From Selenomonadaceae bacterium (GTDB lineage: Bacteria > Bacillota > Negativicutes > Selenomonadales > Selenomonadaceae): DNA of 34,363 nucleotides. The translations under genes were made by a program, and so were the position numbers. The stretch spans positions 1 through 34,363 of the forward strand of contig JAFPVP010000069.1 of the NCBI GenBank assembly GCA_017412925.1, read 5' to 3'. Positions 15,762 to 32,543 of the stretch are shown one piece after another; within the stretch, counting starts at the first letter, position 1, and each line of letters opens with the position of its first letter. The notes below the pieces were generated by a model. The model was not told the origin of the DNA. It was given only the letters and a program-made list of their open reading frames with translations, and did not search any database.

Positions 15762-15781
15762 CCTTTCTAGTGAAAGAAAGG
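15762..15781 (+). promoter_or_regulatory. Inverted repeat upstream of nrfH, possible operator
   Basis: CCTTTCT-AGTGAA-AGAAAGG is a perfect 7-bp dyad about 58 bases before the nrfH ATG. It could be a regulator site for the nitrite reductase operon or a small leader hairpin. No FNR-type TTGAT-N4-ATCAA box and no clear -10/-35 pair were found nearby. Confidence 0.3.
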
Positions 15782-15838
15782 ACAACGCCCCACAACGAAA
15801 AGTATGTTCAACAAAAAATCCGGAAAGGAGGAGGGAAA

Positions 15839-16318
15839 ATGTGCCTGAAATCTTTGTTTGAAAAGCACACGCTCAAATGTCTGGCGGGCGGCTTTATCTT
15901 GGGCGCGGCGACAATCGGAGTTGTTCAATTCGTACTGCACGCGAGCGGCAATCCAACTTTCTGCGGACAGTGCCACTCAATGAAACACGAAGCCGAAACG
16001 TTCGCAATGTCAGTCCACCGCAACCAAGACTGCGTGGAATGCCACCTGCCGCACGACAACACCGCGCATTATCTGTTTGAAAAAGGGCGCACGGGTATGG
16101 TCGATATGTACCACGAGGCAATGCGCGATTATCCGAATCGAATTAAGCTAGACGCCGACGCCCGCAAAATGGTCGCTGAAAACTGCGTTCGTTGCCACGG
16201 CGCGACAATGTCCTACGTGGAAACCGCGCCCGAAGGTACGCAGGACGATTGCTTAAAGTGCCACAGCAAAGTTGCGCACGGCACGAATCACTTGGAAGGG
16301 GGTATAAAAGTTGAGTAA
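15839..16318 (+). CDS. nrfH: Tetrahaem quinol dehydrogenase NrfH
   Basis: A 159-residue membrane-anchored cytochrome c of the NapC/NirT family. It takes electrons from menaquinol and passes them to NrfA. An N-terminal helix (about residues 14-33, CLAGGFILGAATIGVVQFVL) anchors it to the membrane, facing the periplasm. Four haem sites are present: CGQCH (42-46), CVECH (65-69), CVRCH (116-120) and CLKCH (138-142). Met48 two residues after the first CxxCH is the expected axial ligand of haem 1. The ATG at 15839 follows AAAGGAGGA. An earlier in-frame start at 15770 adds a charged stretch before the anchor and lacks a ribosome site. The stop overlaps the nrfA start by 8 bases. Confidence 0.96.
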   Translation: MCLKSLFEKHTLKCLAGGFILGAATIGVVQFVLHASGNPTFCGQCHSMKHEAETFAMSVHRNQDCVECHLPHDNTAHYLFEKGRTGMVDMYHEAMRDYPNRIKLDADARKMVAENCVRCHGATMSYVETAPEGTQDDCLKCHSKVAHGTNHLEGGIKVE

Positions 16319-17699
16319 GATGCAAAAATACATCGCGGGCATACTCGTCTTGTGCGTCGCATTCTTTGGCTTAATGTTCGCCAGAGTTATCGCCAAGCCC
16401 GCGACAAAATTTGAACTGGTTCCAATTCCGGAAGACCAGAAATTAACGCGCATGGGCTACGAAAAAGCCTATCCGTTGCAGTTCAATTCTTATAAAATGA
16501 ACATGGACAAATCTCCCAGCCCGACAGGTTTCGGCGGCGCGGACGCTTATTCCCACCTTACCGAACAGCCTGAACAAATTGAGCTGTTCAAAGGCTACAA
16601 ATTCTCCATTCAATACGACGACGACCGCGGTCACTGGTACGCCGGCGAAGATATTTTAAATTCTAAACGCCGTCCCGGTCAGCTCGGCTCCTGCATAGTC
16701 TGCAAAGGCTCCTACATGTACGACGTTTACTTCAAGGAAAGCGGCTGGGATTTTGCCTCCAAACCGTTCGATGAAGTTGTCGCTCCGATTAAAGATGATG
16801 AATGGTTCGGTTGCTCAAGCTGCCACGACCCCGACACCATGAAGCTCCGCATTTACAATCAAGGTTTCGTCGAATCAATGGCGGAACTCGGAATTGACGT
16901 AAACAACGCCACGCATAACGAAATGCGCGCTTATGTCTGCGGTCAGTGCCACAACGAATATTATTTCAAGAAAAAGGAAGACGGTCGCGTTCATATGCCG
17001 TTCGCAAATGGTCTCGGTCCCGAAGAGGAATGGAAATATTATCACGACGGTCACGACCCGAAATTTGACGCCGACTGGATTCACCCTGATAGCGGTGCCG
17101 CAATGTTGAAAGTTCAGCACCCCGACTTTGAAGTTTGGACGGATTCTATCCACGCGCTTAACGGCGTCACCTGCGTCGATTGCCATATGCCGTATATGCG
17201 CAAGGACGGTCAGAAATACACTTCGCACTGGATGACAAACCCGCTTAAACACTACGACACCGGTTGCGCAAAGTGCCACGACGAATCCTACGAAACTATG
17301 CTCCACCGCGTGCAGACGATTAACGACAACACGTTTAAACTTTTGCGCACGGCAGGACAAACGACGGCTCGCGCACACAAAGTCATCAAAGCCGCAAAAC
17401 TCGCAGGCGCAACCGATGAACAGCTCGCCGAATCCCGTCAACTCGTCCGTGAGGCGCAGTGGTATTGGGATTGGGTCTCCGCCGAAAGTGCTATGGGCTT
17501 CCACAATCCCGATAAGTGCATGAAGGCATTGGGCATTTCGATTGACGCCGCGCACAGGGCGATTGAATCTGCAACTGCCTCAGTCAAGGGCGGCGCACTC
17601 GCGATTGAACCCATGCCGACGGAACCTTTCACGGATACAAAATTCGACGACGCAATTAAACCAGGCGCACCAGCACCAGCTCCCGCTCCGGCGCAATGA
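16311..17699 (+). CDS. nrfA: Pentahaem cytochrome c nitrite reductase NrfA
   Basis: A 462-residue exported enzyme that reduces nitrite to ammonium with six electrons (formate- or quinol-linked dissimilatory ammonification). The active-site haem motif is the diagnostic CIVCK (128-132), where lysine replaces the usual histidine. Four ordinary sites follow: CSSCH (168-172), CGQCH (210-214), CVDCH (288-292) and CAKCH (319-323). An N-terminal signal or anchor helix spans about residues 7-28. The C-terminus ends in an Ala-Pro repeat (APAPAPAPAQ). The start is TTG at 16311, 7 bases after GGAAGGGGGT. The ATG at 16320 is too far from it. The nrfH overlap implies translational coupling, and NrfH and NrfA form a membrane complex. 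ccmEF upstream supply haem attachment. Confidence 0.97.
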   Translation: MSKMQKYIAGILVLCVAFFGLMFARVIAKPATKFELVPIPEDQKLTRMGYEKAYPLQFNSYKMNMDKSPSPTGFGGADAYSHLTEQPEQIELFKGYKFSIQYDDDRGHWYAGEDILNSKRRPGQLGSCIVCKGSYMYDVYFKESGWDFASKPFDEVVAPIKDDEWFGCSSCHDPDTMKLRIYNQGFVESMAELGIDVNNATHNEMRAYVCGQCHNEYYFKKKEDGRVHMPFANGLGPEEEWKYYHDGHDPKFDADWIHPDSGAAMLKVQHPDFEVWTDSIHALNGVTCVDCHMPYMRKDGQKYTSHWMTNPLKHYDTGCAKCHDESYETMLHRVQTINDNTFKLLRTAGQTTARAHKVIKAAKLAGATDEQLAESRQLVREAQWYWDWVSAESAMGFHNPDKCMKALGISIDAAHRAIESATASVKGGALAIEPMPTEPFTDTKFDDAIKPGAPAPAPAPAQ

Positions 17700-17710
17700 G
17701 TTAATCCTTT

Positions 17711-17754
17711 AAAAAAAATTATCGCCTCTCCTAATCGAGGGGCGATTTTTTTTT
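17711..17754. terminator. Bidirectional terminator between nrfA and the CHAT gene
   Basis: A 10-bp stem (17721-17730 with 17737-17746, one G-U pair) and a 6-base loop. Eight T residues follow on the plus strand, and eight A residues precede it, acting as the U-tract on the minus strand. It serves both convergent operons. Confidence 0.85.
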
Positions 17755-17773: not shown

Positions 17774-20700
17774 TTAAATGCCGTACAATATGAACGCCGC
17801 CCAAACCGACGAATCTCTATGCTTCGGATTGGTGCTCTGCAAAAATTCTCGTTTGGTTTCATTCAGCGCGGCGACTTCCGACTTGCCTTTGCTTAGCTTT
17901 TCAAAAACCGCCGAAGTAAATTCCGCCGTCGCCTCGTCGTCGACCTTCCAAAGGCTCATCACCGTATCTTTATTGCCCGCGACGGTCAGCGCATAGGGTA
18001 TGCCGACAATGCCCTCGCCCGCCTGATAGCCGCCCAAACCCGATTCGCACGCCGAAAGATAAACCAGATTACTGCGCAAATCGTAGCCCATCCACTCGCC
18101 GACCGTGATATAGCCGTCCGTGTCCGCGTCATTGAATTCTTGACTTAGAACGATTGAACTGACTTCGGGCATTTCGGGGACAAAAAGTCCGTGCGTCGCA
18201 AAAAGCAGATACTTATACTTTGAAAGTTCGCCGCTTAGGTTCATGCGCCGCAGATTTTTTTCCGTGACTTGTTCGCGCCTGAAAATATCTTTGCTCTCAA
18301 AAAAGGGCGAAACTTTGTCGAGTTCGCGAGCGGTGCCGGGCAAGTTGCTCCATTTCAAGGCGGTTATGTCAATTTTGTCATTGGATTTGCTCCGCAACGT
18401 GTTGAAGAAATCTAACTGACTGCCGCGCGAAGTTGCCGCGTCGCTGTTCCCGTAAACAGCGTCGCCCATTGCGAAAAGTTCTTTGCTCTGTCTGGTGGAG
18501 TTTTCGTGCTCGCGCTTCTTCATCAAATTCAGCACGGCAAGCGACGGCACGTAGCTGACATCAACGGATTCAATCAGCATTTTGCCACGATAGTTAAGCG
18601 TCTCGAAGGGCAGGAGGTTCAATTCAGCGTCGGGCGAAATAATCCAATGTGCAGAGCCGCCCGCATACGTTTCAATCGTCGGGATAAGTTTTTGGCTAAG
18701 CTCGGCGGACAATTCTTTTTTAAGTTCAGACCACTTGGCGGAGTCGTTTATCGCAACGGCTCCCGCTACGGGCGCAGTCCTTCCGGCGGCGATTATATAT
18801 TTGCTGTCGCCGGTGCGCCAAAGATATTTTCCGTCGCCGTGCAAGGCGTTAATGTCGGCGTAGGAGTTAAGCTCGTGATAGAGGCGGCACCTGTCAAAAA
18901 AATTTTTATCAACGGAAATGTTCGCCGCGCCAACGTCGCTGTCATTGCGCAGGAAAACCGTCAGCAATTCTTCGTCGGAGATTTTCATAAACTCAACAAA
19001 GCACGCGCCGTCGGGAATTGCTTGACGATTTTTATTTACGTCGAAATCTTTTATCCACGAATCAGTTTCTTCTGCCGAATCAGCTTGACTGCCGCCGGAA
19101 TATTTTTTGCGAAGTTCGCCCTTGAATTTATGGTAGTCAAGACGAAGAATACCGTAAATCCTTTCAAGACCTGAAAGGAGCTCTTCGTCGCCCTTGGCAA
19201 CGGCGTAGTCGGACGCAACTTCGCAGGATTGGAGTAAATTTTGATACTCGGCAAGGGAATTTTTTTCATCGGAAGTAAGGAGATAATCTTTCGTGACAAG
19301 CGCGTCGTTGTAGCGGTCAATGAGATTTCGACCTTTGCAAAACTCCGCGCAGTAAAAAGCAAAATTTCTGTCGGCGATTTCTCTTGACGCGAAAACTGCG
19401 GCGGCGTCCCTGTAAACGGGAATTTTATCGGCGAACCATCTGGATTTGTTTTCAATCGTAGAAAAGATTTCTTCTTTTAAGAAAAGCCGCCCCTGTTCGT
19501 AAGCTTTTATCATCTTCCTGTAATTTTCTGCCGCGTCTACATTTTTGCCCGAAAGTTTTTGCGCCGTCGTTTTAATGCGGAACAACTCCACGATATTTTT
19601 ATCAGGAGAAATTTCATCGTTTATAAACACCGGATTTTTTTGATTAGCTAAAGTTTCGTCGCATAATTTTATGGCGGCGTCGTATCTTTTTGTCGCAACG
19701 TAACTTTCAGCCAAGTTCGCTCTCAGCAGAAGGGTATTTTCGTCTTCGTCTTCCAAAATTTTTTTATACTCCGCCAAAGTTTGTTCGCGGATTTTTATCG
19801 CTTCGGAAAAATTTCCTGTCGCCGCGTGGTCGCTCGCGATTGAATCAAGCGATTGCAACCGCTCCAAAGAATTTCTCCCGCAAACTTTTTCCGCAATTTG
19901 CAGGGCTTGCGTATCGATAGCAAGAGCGTCGGAAAAATTTCCTTCAGCGCGGCGTATCTTCGACAAATTATTTAAAGCCGCCCATTCATAAAAATTATTT
20001 TCGCCGAAGTGCGCACGACTTAAGTTATAAATTTGCTTGGTAATTCTTTCCGCGTCTTTAAATCTGTTCGCGGCAATGTAAGTTTTGACAATTTCATTTT
20101 TGGTTGCCAGAATTCTTGGTTGATAATCTCTTAAGGTAAACTTGAAAGAATTCAACATTGTCAGCTCTAAATCTGTAAAATTATCAGGGTTGGTAATTGC
20201 TCGAACCAAAAGTATTTGTTGCTGGATATGTTCGCAATATATTCTCATTGTATATCGGTTGGGCAACTTCGCTCTTATCGGCAAATCTTTAGAGATAATG
20301 TCGCTGAATTTTCTATATGCACCCGTCACAAAAGCGGTATTTCCTCTGATAAGCAAAAGTTCATGATAAATCGCCGGATTCGCTTCAAGGAGGTCGCGGT
20401 TGCCAGCTTCAATGTCCTCAAGCATTTTGTCGGCGGTTTTATATTTGCCCGTCTTGTAATAAACGTTCGCCAAATCAACTGCGCTTTCGACGGTGTGCGC
20501 GTCATGGTCACCGAAATTTTTTTTGCAGACGGTCAACTTCTCGTCGATGATTTTCTTCGCGTCGGAGTATTTTCCAAGCATAATATAATCGTCGCTCAAA
20601 ATTTTCATCAGGGTTAATGTCTCATTGCCCTGTTCGCCAAAAATTTTTTTGAACTTCGGCAAACTTTTTGTGCAAATTTCTATGGATTGGGGAATATCGC

Positions 20701-21706
20701 CAACGATGTTATGCACGTCAGCCAAGCCAAGCTCCGATTTCAAAACAATGGGATGGTCGGGTTTTAAATGCCGGAGCGCAGTTTCATTGAGCGTCTTATA
20801 AAATTGAAGACTTATATAGTAACTATTTTCAACAAGTTTAGCTGCGCCAAGTAGCCCGTCGTTTAGCAAAAATTCCGCGCGGTCGTTCTCGCCTTTATCA
20901 AAATCAAAGTCAATCTGCTCCGATAAAAACTTCGCAACGATAGCAAGATTTGGATTCTTACTTTCCGCCAAAACAATTTGTTCTTTGAGGCCCAAAATAT
21001 TTTCGCGTTCTTTGTGGCAATTAAGTTTGCGGTAATCCTCGATGAGCGTAGACATCAGCGAAAATGTTTCAATGTCCAATTTTCCGAAAGCATTTTGCAT
21101 TGACGGGAAAATTTTTTCGGCGATTGCCAATGACTTTTGATTTTCGTTGAGCCCGCAAAGAGCCGCCGCCACCCGCGCCTGATTTATCAGCGATAAAGTT
21201 TCATCGGGCGTCGACTGCAAAAGATTTTGAACCGCTTGCGTTACCTGCAGAGCCTCGCCGTATTTGCCCGTTCGATTGCACAAATCGGATTTCAAATTCA
21301 ACACACGGATTTTCGTCAAATTATCGTGGGCGTTGTCCGAAAGAAGATTTATTTCCCGTTCGGCTTCGGCGTATTCTCCCGCCGACAAATAAAGTTTAGC
21401 GATTAATTCTGCTAGCCCCTCATCAAAATAATCTGCGCCAAAAATTATTTTCTGCGTCGCTTCCACCAATTTGCAATAAGTTGCCGCCTCGATATAGCCA
21501 CCGGTGTTTGCAAAAGAATAAATTTCATCGCGCATTTCAATTACGCCATTATATTTTTTATTCATCGCCGAGAATAGCCTGTTGTGGGAGTTATAGGCGT
21601 CGATATTTTTAATGTCCCAAGAAAAATAAGAATCCGCTTCAGCGGCGTGGGCGGCGGCAAAATTAAATACAAGCGCGACCATAAGGCTGACAAAAAATTT
21701 TTTCAT
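17774..21706 (-). CDS. Secreted TPR-CHAT protein (caspase-like protease)
   Basis: A 1310-residue protein with an N-terminal signal peptide (MKKFFVSLMVALVFNFAAAHA), so it acts outside the cytoplasm, presumably in the periplasm. Residues about 50-800 are repeated helical hairpins of the tetratricopeptide type (for example YAEAEREINLLS, YSDAKKIIDEKL, YKTADKMLEDIE, FSEAIKIREQTLAEYKK). They usually bind partner proteins. Residues about 960-1310 are a CHAT domain of the caspase/separase clan. The catalytic His1172 lies in FATHGLF and Cys1220 in YLSACESGLGG, both intact. Between them DADTDGYITVGE (1193-1204) matches an EF-hand loop. Caspase-clan enzymes usually cut after Arg, Lys or Asp; the target here is unknown. 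It is the last gene of an operon with a FecR-like and a CHASE2 protein. The ATG follows GGGGGAGA. Confidence 0.92.
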   Translation of the reverse strand: MKKFFVSLMVALVFNFAAAHAAEADSYFSWDIKNIDAYNSHNRLFSAMNKKYNGVIEMRDEIYSFANTGGYIEAATYCKLVEATQKIIFGADYFDEGLAELIAKLYLSAGEYAEAEREINLLSDNAHDNLTKIRVLNLKSDLCNRTGKYGEALQVTQAVQNLLQSTPDETLSLINQARVAAALCGLNENQKSLAIAEKIFPSMQNAFGKLDIETFSLMSTLIEDYRKLNCHKERENILGLKEQIVLAESKNPNLAIVAKFLSEQIDFDFDKGENDRAEFLLNDGLLGAAKLVENSYYISLQFYKTLNETALRHLKPDHPIVLKSELGLADVHNIVGDIPQSIEICTKSLPKFKKIFGEQGNETLTLMKILSDDYIMLGKYSDAKKIIDEKLTVCKKNFGDHDAHTVESAVDLANVYYKTGKYKTADKMLEDIEAGNRDLLEANPAIYHELLLIRGNTAFVTGAYRKFSDIISKDLPIRAKLPNRYTMRIYCEHIQQQILLVRAITNPDNFTDLELTMLNSFKFTLRDYQPRILATKNEIVKTYIAANRFKDAERITKQIYNLSRAHFGENNFYEWAALNNLSKIRRAEGNFSDALAIDTQALQIAEKVCGRNSLERLQSLDSIASDHAATGNFSEAIKIREQTLAEYKKILEDEDENTLLLRANLAESYVATKRYDAAIKLCDETLANQKNPVFINDEISPDKNIVELFRIKTTAQKLSGKNVDAAENYRKMIKAYEQGRLFLKEEIFSTIENKSRWFADKIPVYRDAAAVFASREIADRNFAFYCAEFCKGRNLIDRYNDALVTKDYLLTSDEKNSLAEYQNLLQSCEVASDYAVAKGDEELLSGLERIYGILRLDYHKFKGELRKKYSGGSQADSAEETDSWIKDFDVNKNRQAIPDGACFVEFMKISDEELLTVFLRNDSDVGAANISVDKNFFDRCRLYHELNSYADINALHGDGKYLWRTGDSKYIIAAGRTAPVAGAVAINDSAKWSELKKELSAELSQKLIPTIETYAGGSAHWIISPDAELNLLPFETLNYRGKMLIESVDVSYVPSLAVLNLMKKREHENSTRQSKELFAMGDAVYGNSDAATSRGSQLDFFNTLRSKSNDKIDITALKWSNLPGTARELDKVSPFFESKDIFRREQVTEKNLRRMNLSGELSKYKYLLFATHGLFVPEMPEVSSIVLSQEFNDADTDGYITVGEWMGYDLRSNLVYLSACESGLGGYQAGEGIVGIPYALTVAGNKDTVMSLWKVDDEATAEFTSAVFEKLSKGKSEVAALNETKREFLQSTNPKHRDSSVWAAFILYGI

Positions 21707-21723
21707 GGCGATTTCTCCCCCGC

Positions 21724-22617
21724 TTACATTTCCTCATCAAGGTGACGGGCGCATTTTTTCAGCAGGACGCTTTTATCTTCCGAAAGTTTTCCGTCCGTCG
21801 GAGAAATTTCGCTGAGCCACTGCGCACTTAGCCAATACAAATCAACCGTGTCCGGATAAAGGTCGCTGATAAGCTGAACATACGCCGCCTTTTTCAACGT
21901 GCGCTCCTCCGCCGAAATATTTTCCGCGTCAAGTTCGGCTAGTCTGTCGAGAATATCTTTTTCTGTCTGCGCGTCTAAAATCGTGAACTTAAAGTCGCCG
22001 GTATCGTCGAGGCTCCACGAATATTTTTGCCCCGCCTTAAGTTTTACAGCGTTCGGCACGAGTTCAATAGAATTCGCCGCGCCAATTTTTTTGTCGAAAA
22101 CTTTTTTGCCCTTGCCGTCCTTGATGACGAAATTTTTTGCGGCTCCGTCCCAAGCAAAGCGCACGGTTTGATTCGTCAGCAACGTGACATCAAAGCCAGG
22201 TCGCGGATTCAAATTCGGTTCATCGTCCGAGCCACGACTCGCGCCGGAAACGACACTTTCCACGTTGTTCCAAAAAGAATTTACGTAATCAATGGCACTT
22301 TGCGCCACGCCGCCAATACCTGTGGGCGGATTGTAGGAAATGACGTAAGCTCCGTTTTGCGCGTGGAAGTCCGCGTAGGGCGCGCATTTAATTTTCACGT
22401 AGCCGACGTTGCCAGTAATCGCGTCGCCGGGATAAAGCAGAGCGTCCGAGCCGCCGGGTATTCCGTTCGCCCGCTGAATTGCAATGCCGCCCGCTACTTC
22501 CTCGTAATTGGTGATGACTGCCACGGGTTTTGGATAGGCAAAGCCCGTTTGAAAATTGCCCAAAACAAACGCCACGCAAAAAGCGACCATGACAGCGAAT
22601 TTTTTGATAGTGCTCAA
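21724..22617 (-). CDS. Secreted FecR-like protein
   Basis: A 297-residue protein with a signal peptide (about residues 1-27, ending GFAYPKPV). The first 100 residues (VAVITNYEEVAGGIAIQRAN, then LLYPGDAI, VGYVKIKC) follow the FecR-like beta pattern in which a GD.I motif marks a small beta domain. A linker follows (about 110-150). Residues 150-215 form another beta-rich segment (VTLLTNQTVRFAWDG, SIELVPNAVKLKAGQKYSWSL), and the C-terminal 80 residues are helical. The function is unknown; FecR-like domains often bind extracytoplasmic ligands or partner proteins. The start is TTG. Its ribosome site AGGAGGAGA is also the Arg-Arg-Arg end of the upstream CHASE2 gene, 3 bases away. The CHAT gene follows after 17 bases. 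Family call is moderate. Confidence 0.7.
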   Translation of the reverse strand: MSTIKKFAVMVAFCVAFVLGNFQTGFAYPKPVAVITNYEEVAGGIAIQRANGIPGGSDALLYPGDAITGNVGYVKIKCAPYADFHAQNGAYVISYNPPTGIGGVAQSAIDYVNSFWNNVESVVSGASRGSDDEPNLNPRPGFDVTLLTNQTVRFAWDGAAKNFVIKDGKGKKVFDKKIGAANSIELVPNAVKLKAGQKYSWSLDDTGDFKFTILDAQTEKDILDRLAELDAENISAEERTLKKAAYVQLISDLYPDTVDLYWLSAQWLSEISPTDGKLSEDKSVLLKKCARHLDEEM

Positions 22618-22620
22618 CTT

Positions 22621-24015
22621 TTATCTCCTCCTAAAGAAATGCCTAAACGAAATGCCGCCGACAATAAAAGCCTGAATATTATTTATAAAATTATAAACTC
22701 CAACAGCCGTAAACGCAAAGCTCAAGTAAATAAATTCGTTCGTGGCGCAAAAATAAATGTAAGTAAAAAGCCAACAAAGCGGCGTCAGCGCAAATATCAC
22801 ACACTTTGCCCTGAACTCGCTCAAGATTAAAAATGCATACGAGGCAATCACAATCAAAATTATTTCAATCAGAATGTGTTTGTAAGGCGAAGTCAAATGC
22901 GGGCGCGTCTCGCCCAAAATGGAGGCGATGCTGTTGCCGTGAACGTACATGCCCGGCAAATTTCCGACGGGCGTTGAAAAAAAATCGGCGCAATCTTCGT
23001 CAGCACGACCGATAATCACGATTTTATTGCGGCAATTGATTTTTTTGTTGTCCAAGCCGTCCCGCCGCCAATGCCCGATATTAATCGGAGAAATCGTCCC
23101 GAAAGGCATTTGCGCAAGGACGTCGGGCGGAATGGCGACGTATTGAATTCTGTTATACTGCAAAGAGATTGTGTCCCGCAATAAATCGCCGTCCCGCGTC
23201 CGTTCCCTGTAAAATTTGAACGGCTTCTTTATTGTCGTCACGAAAAAATTTTTGTCTGTGTTAAGAATTTCGGCTTGAAGATTTTCCAGCTCTGCGAAAT
23301 TTCCGCTGTAAAGCACGGCAGTCAACAAAGGTATCGACCATAAAATTTTTTGCTCGCCCGTTTGAGCGTCTTTAACTTCAAGATAGGGCAACCAGAAACG
23401 AGCGTAATTATCGCCCACCTGATTTACCGTGAACGTCGGCGTGACAGCGAAAATTTTTTCATTATCGATTAGTGCCGCGAAACTGTTATGCTTAATTGTT
23501 CTATCAGCGTAAGTCGCCAGCGGCAAAAGAATTTTCGTCTGCGCGGCGGAATCGTTTTTTATCTGTTCAAGCAGGTCAAACAAATCTTTATCGCGCTCCG
23601 AACCAGTCTTTGCAAATTCTTCGCCGTCAAATTTTTTGGCAGGAGAGTAATCGTCTTCGGAAAAATCCATGTCAAGCACGACGACTTTTGCGCCGCCTTG
23701 ATAAGCGACGTTCAGAAGTTGCGCCACTTTATCGCGCGGCGTCAAATCCGGCTTAGCCAGTGTCTGAAAAGATTTGTCATCGAAATCCAAAAAAATTATG
23801 TCTTGAGCCGCCTTCCACGTGTCCGTTTCGGAATCCATGCGAAGTTTTATATAGCGGTCAAACCAGCCATTGATGAAGCTCTGCCGCATGGTCGTATCCT
23901 TCATGGCAACAAAAAAAAGCATGAGCACCACGCCCAGCAAAATGTTGAAGATAAATTGATTTCTTCTCTCCGTAGGGTATCTGTTGATGTTAAAAAAATT
24001 TACAATCTTGCTCAT
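22621..24015 (-). CDS. CHASE2-domain membrane protein without output domain
   Basis: A 464-residue membrane protein. One helix near residues 24-42 leads to an extracytoplasmic CHASE2 sensor domain (about 45-370). Its typical blocks are IIFLDFDDKSFQ, GGAKVVVLDMDFSEDD, KIVIIGRADEDCADFF and MYVHGNSIASIL. Three helices follow (ILIEIILIVIASYAFLIL, CVIFALTPLCWLFTYIYF, YLSFAFTAVGVYNFI). In most CHASE2 proteins these lead into a histidine kinase, cyclase or GGDEF domain. Here the chain stops about 20 residues later at HFFRRR, so no enzymatic output is encoded. It probably signals by protein contact, perhaps with the two secreted proteins of the same operon. The ATG is preceded by GGGAAAG, and a near-consensus promoter lies about 30 bases upstream. 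Confidence 0.88.
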   Translation of the reverse strand: MSKIVNFFNINRYPTERRNQFIFNILLGVVLMLFFVAMKDTTMRQSFINGWFDRYIKLRMDSETDTWKAAQDIIFLDFDDKSFQTLAKPDLTPRDKVAQLLNVAYQGGAKVVVLDMDFSEDDYSPAKKFDGEEFAKTGSERDKDLFDLLEQIKNDSAAQTKILLPLATYADRTIKHNSFAALIDNEKIFAVTPTFTVNQVGDNYARFWLPYLEVKDAQTGEQKILWSIPLLTAVLYSGNFAELENLQAEILNTDKNFFVTTIKKPFKFYRERTRDGDLLRDTISLQYNRIQYVAIPPDVLAQMPFGTISPINIGHWRRDGLDNKKINCRNKIVIIGRADEDCADFFSTPVGNLPGMYVHGNSIASILGETRPHLTSPYKHILIEIILIVIASYAFLILSEFRAKCVIFALTPLCWLFTYIYFCATNEFIYLSFAFTAVGVYNFINNIQAFIVGGISFRHFFRRR

Positions 24016-24045
24016 CGTAATATCTTTCCCGAAATTTTTTTGTCA

Positions 24046-24074
24046 AGTATAGCTTTAGATTCAGGTGCTGTCAA
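24046..24074 (-). promoter_or_regulatory. Near-consensus promoter of the CHASE2/FecR/CHAT operon
   Basis: On the minus strand, TTGACA (24069-24074), a 17-base spacer and TATACT (24046-24051) form an almost perfect housekeeping promoter. The leader before the ATG at 24015 is about 25 bases. A second TTGACA overlaps (24041-24046) with TATTAC 18 bases on. The strength suggests constitutive expression unless a repressor acts. Confidence 0.85.
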
Positions 24075-24091
24075 AAATTTTCTCCCTGCAC

Positions 24092-24123
24092 AAAAAAAAG
24101 ACCCGTTCAGCGAGGAACGAGCC
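24092..24123 (-). terminator. Terminator after leuB
   Basis: A hairpin with arms CGTTC and GAACG (plus one outer pair past a mismatch) in 24102-24120 is followed on the minus strand by GGGTCTTTTTTTT. It lies 13 bases past the leuB stop and just upstream of the next operon's promoter. Confidence 0.6.
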
Positions 24124-24135
24124 GTAAAGTTCAAT

Positions 24136-25200
24136 TTATAGATTGCTGCAGATAATTTCTGTAGCCTGCGCGGTACCGATTTTCTTAAAGCCGTCGGAGT
24201 AAATGTCAGCGGTGCGCCAGCCGTCAGCCAACGTTTTATCAATCGCGGATTCGATAGCTTTTGCGGCGTCCTCCTCCTTGAGGCTGTAGCGCAGGAGCAT
24301 AGCCGCGCTTAAAATCGTGCCCATGGGGTTTGCAATATCTTTGCCGGCGATGTCGGGCGCGGAGCCGTGAATCGGTTCGTAAAGGCTGGTGAGTTCTCCG
24401 ATTGACGCGCTGGGCATTAAACCAATCGACCCGCCGATAACCGCCGCCTCGTCGCTTAAAATGTCGCCGAAAATATTATTCGTGACGATAACGTCGAATT
24501 GCTTCGGGTTGAGGACGAGTTGCATTGCGGCGTTGTCGACGTAAAGATGATTCAATTCAACTTCGGGGAAATTTTTTGCCACGTCGACGACAACTTTTCT
24601 CCACAGACGACTTGCCGCCAGAACGTTTGCTTTGTCGACGGAAGTAACTTTTCCGCGACGGAGTTTAGCAGTTTCAAAGGCAAGCTTGGTGATTCGTTCG
24701 ATTTCGGGCACGGAATAAATTTCGGTGTCCCACGCCTGTTCGACGCCGTCTTTAAGTTCAGATTCACAGCGCGGTCCGAAATAAATTCCGCCGACGAGTT
24801 CGCGGACGATAAGCAAATCAGATCCGCCGACGAGTTCGGGTTTGAGCGGCGAAGAATTTATCAGTTCGGGATAAACTTTCGTCGGGCGCAGGTTAGCAAA
24901 AAGTCCGAGACCTTTGCGCAAGCCGAAGATAGCTTTTTCGGGGCGCAGGTGCACGGGCAATGAATCCCACTTTTTGCCGCCGACCGCGCCGAATAAAACG
25001 CCGTCAGCTTTTTTGCAAGCGTCGAGGGCTTCGTCGGTTAAGGGCGTCCCGAATTTTTCGTAGGAGGTGCCGCCGGCGTCGCGCGTTTCAAACTCCAAAC
25101 CGATTTTAAATTTTGCGTCGACTTTTTTAAGGACTTCGACGGCGGAGGCGGTTATCTCCTGCCCGATTCCGTCGCCTGGAATGACAATAATTTTTTTCAT
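24136..25200 (-). CDS. leuB: 3-Isopropylmalate dehydrogenase
   Basis: A 354-residue cytoplasmic enzyme of leucine synthesis that oxidises and decarboxylates 3-isopropylmalate with NAD+. Landmarks are the N-terminal PGDGIGQEI, the substrate region LRKGLGLFANLRPTKV, and the LeuB-type signature RELVGGIYFGPR, which separates it from isocitrate dehydrogenase. The metal-binding DILSDEAAVIGGSIGLMPSA and the NAD+ site EPIHGSAPDIAGKDIANP are also present. Length is normal. The ATG follows AGGAAAG, and the gene begins 6 bases after the nifJ stop, so both are read from the nifJ promoter. leuA, leuC and leuD are not in the window. Confidence 0.97.
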   Translation of the reverse strand: MKKIIVIPGDGIGQEITASAVEVLKKVDAKFKIGLEFETRDAGGTSYEKFGTPLTDEALDACKKADGVLFGAVGGKKWDSLPVHLRPEKAIFGLRKGLGLFANLRPTKVYPELINSSPLKPELVGGSDLLIVRELVGGIYFGPRCESELKDGVEQAWDTEIYSVPEIERITKLAFETAKLRRGKVTSVDKANVLAASRLWRKVVVDVAKNFPEVELNHLYVDNAAMQLVLNPKQFDVIVTNNIFGDILSDEAAVIGGSIGLMPSASIGELTSLYEPIHGSAPDIAGKDIANPMGTILSAAMLLRYSLKEEDAAKAIESAIDKTLADGWRTADIYSDGFKKIGTAQATEIICSNL

Positions 25201-31148: not shown

Positions 31149-32543
31149 TCAGTGGTGGCGAATGACTTCAAATCTCCACAGCGCAACTTTTTCTTCGGGA
31201 CGAATGCCCGCCTTGCGTTTGGCGATTGCAATTTGCTCCGCGACGGTGTCCACGCCCTCCAAGTCAGGCAAGAGTAAACCTCTGCGTGCACCGTTCTCGA
31301 CAATCACGCCGTAACGTTTAACGTTCAAGTCCTTAACGTCGAAAATTCTTTCCGGCTCGCCCAAAACGTCGACGCTGTATTCAATATCGTCAAGCTCGTC
31401 AATCGTCACGGGCTCGAAGCGCGGGTCTTTGGAGCAGGCGGAAATTGCGTTCTGCAAAATTTCTTCGGCAAGATTATCCTGCGTCGCTATAATCGTACCG
31501 ATACACCCACGCAGATTTCCGTCCTTGTGCAAGCTCACGAAAGCTCCTGCGCGGCGATTGATAAGTTCTTCGGGCAGGTCGGCGGGCAAAGTTGCGGGCT
31601 TGCGCGTCTTAACGAACGTCTCCAGACTGTGGCGCGCCAATTTAACAAAAGCGTCTTCGTTAGCCTTGCGCTCCTCCGCCTCGTGTTTTTTAAATTTCGC
31701 CAGCTGATAAGCAAAATTTCTGCCCGCGTCCTCGCCGTCGATATTGAAATAAACAATGCCGTAGCCGACGCCGAACGTGCCCTCGTAAGATAATTTTTCG
31801 GCGCGGATAGCTTTTCTGTCGAGTGCGCCCGCCATTATCCAAAAGCTTCTCAAGCCGCACTCCGCCGCCCGATTGCACATCGTATTATCCATCGTCAGCA
31901 GTTGCAAAAAGTTCGCGCCACCCAAATTCTCCATGACTTGCGAATCAAATTGCGGTCCTTCTTCCACAAAGCCGTAAGGTCCGTCCGATTTTAATTTGTG
32001 CGATAAATCGCCGCTCGCGATGAAAAAAATTTTCCGTCCAAGTTCGTCCGCCACGCGCGCTATCGTCTGCCCGAATTTATAATGAAGTGCCGCCGACATG
32101 CCCGACAAGCCGATTCGCAAAAATTTTACGCGATTGAAGTCCAGCCCCGCTTCCTGTAAAAATCTTAGCGGAATCATCGTGCCGTGGTCTAGGGAAGAAT
32201 TTCTTTCGCCCAACGTGCCCGCAGGAACGCCCGCCGCCATTGCGCTGTTTGAAAGTTTCGTTACAAATTCCGTGTCGTAATTTATTGCCAACGCCACTTG
32301 CGGTGCTCGGAATTGCGCCATGTTGCCGGTTGCCGCCTCGCCCGGCGAAATGTGGAAATAATCCGCGTACAGGATTGAATGCGGGCTGGTGATTATTATC
32401 GTGTCAGGGGCAAGCTCGACGATTCTGCGCGAAACTTCTTTGTAAGCCGCTGTCGTCGCTGAAATTTTTTGTTCCTCGCCGTGCCCGACTTCAGGCAAAA
32501 TTATCGGCGGGTGCGGGACAACTGTTGCGCCCAATATGCTCAT
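31149..32543 (-). CDS. MEMO/LigB-like and AMMECR1 fusion protein (AmmeMemoRadiSam system)
   Basis: A 464-residue two-domain cytoplasmic protein. Residues 1-265 resemble class III extradiol dioxygenases and MEMO (GATVVPHPPIILPEVG, SPHSILYADYF, SSLDHGTMIPL, FFIASGDLSHKL), with conserved histidines for a metal site. Residues about 285-464 are AMMECR1, shown by its hallmark LRGCIGTI plus AFVSLHKDG and CSKDPRFEPV. The two domains, separate or fused, normally occur with a radical SAM enzyme as the AmmeMemoRadiSam system, whose chemistry is unsettled. No radical SAM gene is adjacent here. The ATG follows GGAGGAATAA, and a TATAAT box lies about 30 bases upstream. Confidence 0.9.
   Translation of the reverse strand: MSILGATVVPHPPIILPEVGHGEEQKISATTAAYKEVSRRIVELAPDTIIITSPHSILYADYFHISPGEAATGNMAQFRAPQVALAINYDTEFVTKLSNSAMAAGVPAGTLGERNSSLDHGTMIPLRFLQEAGLDFNRVKFLRIGLSGMSAALHYKFGQTIARVADELGRKIFFIASGDLSHKLKSDGPYGFVEEGPQFDSQVMENLGGANFLQLLTMDNTMCNRAAECGLRSFWIMAGALDRKAIRAEKLSYEGTFGVGYGIVYFNIDGEDAGRNFAYQLAKFKKHEAEERKANEDAFVKLARHSLETFVKTRKPATLPADLPEELINRRAGAFVSLHKDGNLRGCIGTIIATQDNLAEEILQNAISACSKDPRFEPVTIDELDDIEYSVDVLGEPERIFDVKDLNVKRYGVIVENGARRGLLLPDLEGVDTVAEQIAIAKRKAGIRPEEKVALWRFEVIRHH

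Follow-up and report, generated by a model that had tools for sequence, protein, structure and literature searches.

We analyzed a 34,363-nucleotide stretch of DNA (the window; contig JAFPVP010000069.1 of assembly GCA_017412925.1) from a Selenomonadaceae bacterium, in which three minus-strand genes between nrfHA (15770-17699) and leuB (24136-25200) may encode a membrane-tethered extracytoplasmic protease complex. In this reading, to which we give about an even chance, a CHASE2 protein and a secreted-type partner hold a TPR-CHAT peptidase whose TPR recognition part can be exchanged. The genes encode a CHASE2 membrane protein (22621..24015; 464 amino acids, ATG start), a partner of the MtxA/DUF928 type (21724..22617; 297 amino acids, TTG start), and a secreted-type TPR-CHAT protein (17774..21706; 1,310 amino acids, ATG start). 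Gaps of 3 and 17 bases separate the first from the second and the second from the third.

The C-terminal CHAT domain (PF12770; residues 998-1309, 17780..18715, minus strand) was matched at an E value of 5e-52 (177.6 bits against a cut-off of 24), and the same protein has a TPR_12 match at 3.6e-33. His1172 (codon 18191..18193, within “ATHG”) and Cys1220 (codon 18047..18049, within “SACES”), both on the minus strand, are located and intact as the first-pass annotation of this DNA had claimed. The pair is kept in 67 of the 68 best TPR-CHAT homologues by a looser pattern (62/68 by a stricter one barring HG plus K or M and the like), and the sole exception ends before the cysteine. Among the 56 full-length proteins in this set, 50 have a signal-peptide-like start and 2 a possible later membrane segment; such starts were also found in 75 of the 79 partners of at least 280 amino acids (of 110). 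All of these calls, including those for the window proteins, come from our own hydropathy script rather than SignalP, and some of the misses look like wrong start sites. Sec export of both the partner and the TPR-CHAT protein is predicted from these starts, and the CHAT homologues do not consistently lack signal peptides or catalytic residues, the outcome that the first-pass annotation had named as fatal to its proposal.

The CHASE2 domain (PF05226; 22843..23922, minus strand) was matched at an E value of 4.1e-23 (82.7 bits against a gathering cut-off of 26.3). The 464-amino-acid protein contains no further Pfam family, and no cytoplasmic output domain was found. Its structure model (predicted local distance difference test score [pLDDT], 89; predicted template modeling score [pTM], 0.88) places helices at residues 15-38, 377-397, 400-425, and 434-452, i.e., one long helix before the outer domain and three after, versus one before and two after by the hydropathy script, which marks only the first three. 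Among 74 CHASE2 homologues longer than 440 amino acids, the script found three segments in 53 and four in 12. One membrane helix before the outer domain and three after are reported for a Trichodesmium CHASE2 protein (PMC3501461; here and below, cited papers are represented by excerpts). Model and hydropathy together predict that little of the window protein is left inside the cell. A second CHASE2 protein in the same genome (L034, G000:C43:2494-3381) is fused to an adenylate/guanylate cyclase and lies next to a 327-amino-acid protein without a Pfam match. Many further CHASE2 proteins of the genus occupy open frames of ∼600 amino acids, and the one scanned (L034) is this cyclase fusion.

The partner model (pLDDT, 87; pTM, 0.81) resembles MtxA in combining an Ig-like with a helical, TPR-like fold (residues 138-294, 21736..22206, minus strand); the MtxA structure 4z29 was not listed at E values of ≤1 in a profile search of PDB sequences. 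The partner had been labeled FecR-like, a name we replace with MtxA/DUF928 type: none of 32 family members matched FecR (PF04773) at E values of ≤0.1, and 6 of the 32 matched DUF928 (PF06051) below 0.1 (best, 1.3e-4). No DUF928 match above the gathering score was found in 12 genomes or records. The partner profile aligned with that of cyanobacterial CHASE2 partners (hhalign, 95%; E value, 2.9e-8) and retrieved five cyanobacterial CHASE2-partner proteins in four loci (8.7e-9 to 6.5e-4). The profiles were built partly from these same proteins, making hits on those loci circular, and for L132, L133, and L136 the cyanobacterial partner was retrieved solely by a profile that includes it. The Pfam scans are not circular, nor is the application of a cyanobacteria-only profile to Negativicutes, which retrieved the partner of a sister operon (L043) at 2.8e-7. 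By these profile comparisons, the partner is a distant relative of the DUF928-like partners of cyanobacterial CHASE2 genes, whose own DUF928 identity rests on weak matches (L065; E value, 0.0017). Many partner relatives in P0072-P0102 are ∼220 amino acids long and match about half of the query; the six that were aligned are without the N-terminal beta region. The sister operon also has a 173-amino-acid secreted-type gene between partner and TPR-CHAT (L043:8526-9047) that is absent from the window and whose product had no Pfam match (E value, ≤0.01) and no NCBIfam match (≤0.1).

Comparison with this sister operon, which is in G200, a genome of the same genus, set the TPR part of the peptidase apart. 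Window and G200 share 97% identity in the partner, 95% in CHASE2, 97% in leuB, and 93% in the CHAT part, versus 57% in TPR-CHAT residues 1-930. The drop sets in where the CHAT gene begins (blastn, 93.7% over 21692-24933 and then 67% over 20344-21656) and ends near residues 885-945, with residues 600-799 intermediate at 74%; we delimit the variable TPR region as residues 1 to about 920 (18947..21706, minus strand). Elsewhere, TPR identities in this range (55 to 60%) occur between operons whose partners are 72 to 73% identical. Four-fold-site differences are 9% in the partner, 16% in CHASE2, 13% in the CHAT part, and 17 to 32% in the flanking genes (the upstream gene, nrfH, leuB, and nrfA), versus 48, 39, 29, and 46% in four TPR blocks. 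In three of the four blocks, the divergence is higher than in any other gene, a pattern indicative of replacement by a diverged allele and not of selection alone. Of the 71 columns that distinguish P0207 (named by a source as Quinella sp. 3Q1) from G200, 70 fall inside a stretch of ∼170 columns in the TPR part; in 2,000 trials of random placement, no span of 175 columns received more than 26 differences. In the P0203/P0205 lineage, identities are 94% for the partner, 90% for CHAT, and 65% for the TPR part. On the sequence comparison, the TPR half looks to have been swapped between otherwise near-identical operons.

The trio recurs in other genomes, as the first-pass annotation had proposed checking. 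Across 380 genomes of Negativicutes, including the window's own (G000), CHASE2 was found in 34 and CHAT in 13. At E values of <1e-40, CHAT is present in eight genomes (nine genes), all of which have all three genes; the five other CHAT genomes have weak matches (best, 1e-7 to 1e-11), and none is among the 34 with CHASE2. Six genomes, drawn on as the window, L043, L045, L046, L047, and L048, keep the trio whole on one contig and in the same order, and the trio-bearing genomes spread over four families. Another genome (L051/L052) has the order CHASE2-CHAT-partner, with its CHASE2 gene at contig ends; at L044, CHASE2, the partner, and what looks by eye like the start of a TPR-CHAT-like protein run into a contig end, and the CHAT gene is on L182. 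A separate sign of linkage is the co-occurrence across homologue sets, which have 14 to 17 longest-contig values in common per family pair versus 0.3 to 0.7 expected (all 110 partner rows, all 91 CHASE2 rows, and the best 73 of 120 CHAT rows listed out of 485 matches). Scanning a single genome for each species, which is not a census because it used one short peptide pattern, placed the partner in two Selenomonadaceae, one Sporomusaceae, one Aminicenantes, and one Nitrospiraceae locus. In the Sporomusaceae locus, the CHASE2 protein has nSTAND1 and a weak DUF4062 match. DUF4062-nSTAND1-CHASE2 fusions also lie upstream of partner and TPR-CHAT in L047 (10739-13792) and L048 (7315-10392), and L010/L047 also has, close by, a SlipAM/TPR protein resembling a surface lipoprotein assembly modifier. 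In the Aminicenantes locus, CHASE2 is present, the partner has an extra C-terminal part, and two C14 caspases, whose starts look signal-peptide-like by eye, replace CHAT.

The trio is also found beyond Negativicutes, for example on cyanobacterial plasmids (L065 and L068). Eight further loci were opened from 41 records matching the L065 CHASE2 protein; in these ten loci together, the partner directly follows CHASE2 in 7 and is ∼6 kb away in L134, and CHAT is nearby in 9 (not in L138). The CHASE2 protein itself has an N-terminal CHAT match in L068 (43.6 bits) and one in L065 that falls slightly short of the cut-off of 24 (23.6 bits). Because these plasmids carry TPR-CHAT proteins that look signal-peptide-like by eye near CHASE2, the previous statement that the CHAT systems known so far work in the cytoplasm can apply at most to those that have been studied. 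The Aminicenantes genome belongs to a phylum that we take to be Acidobacteriota in GTDB, and 199 genomes of this phylum contain CHASE2 in 62, C14 in 46, and CHAT in 120. At 15 of its CHASE2 loci, a nonrandom set selected in most cases because the CHASE2 protein was short or scored weakly, CHAT is nearby in L115, L120, and L122, and C14 is nearby in L113, L114, and L117. Four of eight scanned neighbors of CHASE2 genes have TPR at E values of <0.05, and one has FecR (L118), the latter adjoining a TIR-CHASE2 fusion (L118:7145-9992). L121 is a kinase-CHASE2 fusion.

We propose that the CHASE2 membrane protein and the MtxA-like partner hold the putatively exported caspase-like TPR-CHAT protein at the membrane, where its TPR superhelix, which bears signs of exchange between strains, would recognize targets. 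Target binding by the TPR region may switch on the CHAT domain, which could then cut envelope or incoming proteins. The topology and partner fold in this scheme are predictions of the structure models, and we infer the binding among the three proteins. With no cytoplasmic output domain found on the window CHASE2, the sole catalytic part of the unit would lie outside; in relatives that have DUF4062-nSTAND1, CHAT, TIR, kinase, or cyclase domains inside, the shared outer complex would in addition pass signals into the cell. The first-pass annotation had CHASE2 sensing, the partner relaying, and CHAT cutting, a division of labor that is conjectural, and the evidence places target recognition in the TPR region at least as well as in CHASE2. 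A tentative extension, possible rather than probable, is an envelope surveillance akin to innate immunity, in which a CHASE2/MtxA-type complex tethers a secreted caspase-like protease, TPR specificity blocks are traded between strains but the effector is retained, proteins of phages, rivals, or predators are detected and cut outside the cytoplasm, and other phyla wire the same outer complex to nSTAND, TIR, CHAT, or caspase effectors.

Several observations weigh against an exchangeable extracytoplasmic protease. Of 105 operon pairs, 104 have lower identity in the TPR part than in the partner, and all 105 have lower identity there than in CHASE2, so TPR parts change fast anyway, and with flanking genes at 17 to 32%, the TPR block of residues 600-799 (29%) lies within their range. 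The case for exchange comes from few lineages, largely metagenome assembled; P0207 is a protein sequence only, and assembly of mixed strains is possible. The trio is rare (8/380 genomes), its gene order varies (L051), and the ninth CHAT gene (L181) is on a 6.9-kb contig without CHASE2 or partner. Outside Negativicutes, the Nitrospiraceae locus (L012) has the partner gene without CHASE2 or CHAT, L137 and L138 are without a partner, CHASE2 was near CHAT in only two of eight opened plasmid CHAT loci, and CHASE2 lay within ∼10 kb of C14 in just 4 of the 199 genomes (G380, G421, G456, and G527). The general speed of TPR change would be expected if the proteins served envelope quality control or processing of a fixed substrate, with TPR parts differing merely by fast repeat evolution. 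We consider this unlikely: fast amino acid change alone gives neither the raised synonymous divergence in three of four TPR blocks nor the confinement of the G200/P0207 difference to one block.

It is also conceivable that TPR-CHAT is an input protease, clipping the partner or the outer domain of CHASE2 so that the clip is read inside, with the window's inner part lost or present as a separate protein. Relatives whose CHASE2 carries DUF4062-nSTAND1 (L010 and L048), CHAT (L068 and, below threshold, L065), TIR (L118), or a kinase (L121) speak for this reading, as do published relatives with a histidine kinase (PMC5192318) or a cyclase (PMC4439547). It fits such relatives better than the window operon, where CHASE2 has only short ends beyond the outer domain and helices and yet the peptidase is kept, and we regard it as improbable here. 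Least credible to us, and very unlikely, is that the genes have no common function, either as a chance or passenger cluster or because the CHAT fold belongs to a binding protein that no longer cuts. The CHASE2 protein is indeed patchy (1 of 59 other relatives, one sample), and 12 nrfA loci from the same genus showed no gene of the module, but the trio recurs across phyla and the His/Cys dyad is kept in nearly all homologues. The anatomy of the operon, its TPR pattern, and the lack of an output domain on the inside all agree with a membrane-tethered extracytoplasmic peptidase in which the TPR superhelix recognizes a changing target.

The surroundings of the operon are consistent with an independent unit. 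A sigma-70-like promoter, TTGACA-17-TATACT (24046..24074, minus strand; 11/12 matches, by consensus match only), precedes the CHASE2 gene; taken together, promoter-like sites show no enrichment in the window (11 found versus 8.5 ± 3.2 in shuffles). Terminator-like hairpins, of which 20 were found versus 14.3 ± 2.9 in shuffles, lie after leuB, between it and this promoter (24100..24123, minus strand; 9 pairs and 8 T), and between nrfA and the CHAT gene (17721..17746, plus strand; 10 pairs and 8 T). With hairpins on both sides and a near-consensus promoter, the operon looks self-contained; the strand, gaps, and promoter given in the first-pass annotation were all found again. At G033:C183 (L155/L180), a copy of nrfA is broken by one stop codon. 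Elsewhere in the window (31149-32543), a single protein combines a LigB-type dioxygenase domain with an AMMECR1 domain.

The unit supplies CHASE2 with a partner of solved fold and, in the window, with a peptidase that is predicted to sit on the same membrane side. Should the TPR region prove to be a recognition cassette under exchange, strain comparison would offer a way to look for the target, making an opaque system testable, and caspase-like bacterial effectors would be extended from the cytoplasm to the envelope. Units of CHASE2 and a secreted partner have been published (PMC5192318, PMC4439547, and PMC5587647), and we found neither a separate secreted-type CHAT peptidase in such a unit nor exchange of its TPR part in the open-licence literature.

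In magnetotactic bacteria, the gene for the secreted Ig/TPR protein MtxA lies ahead of one for a CHASE2-adenylate cyclase; that system has its cyclase output inside, its deletion gave no visible phenotype, and the excerpts note no CHAT (PMC4439547). The Burkholderia BiofilmReg operon likewise joins an extracytoplasmic LysM/FecR protein to a CHASE2 membrane sensor, but there CHASE2 belongs to a histidine kinase that is paired with a response regulator, and no peptidase is noted in the portion available (PMC5192318). A Nostoc punctiforme cluster pairs a CHASE2 gene with a DUF928 gene and has WD40 proteins and a hypothetical protein where TPR-CHAT stands in the window (PMC5587647). The Trichodesmium metacaspase-CHASE2 fusion couples CHASE2 to a caspase-type peptidase that is cytoplasmic and on the same chain (PMC3501461), an arrangement also mentioned in excerpts of PMC8195603 and PMC5756287, whereas the window's peptidase is a separate secreted-type protein. 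In Craspase, TPR-CHAT/Csx29 fuses TPR repeats to a CHAT protease under partner control, as may be the case here, but it is bound to Cas7-11 and RNA, while the window protein has a signal-peptide-like start and a CHASE2 neighbor (PMC10028731 and PMC9729208). No Cas gene was among the ten window genes scanned, the flanks being nrfA and leuB, and a CRISPR array search was not made. The diversified antigen sensors of multicellular bacteria resemble the window unit in pairing a variable recognition part with a conserved effector, and its relatives in including CHAT and nSTAND1, with some targets predicted outside the cytoplasm; these sensors vary by diversity-generating retroelements, whereas the window unit looks to vary by exchange of TPR blocks (PMC10907252).

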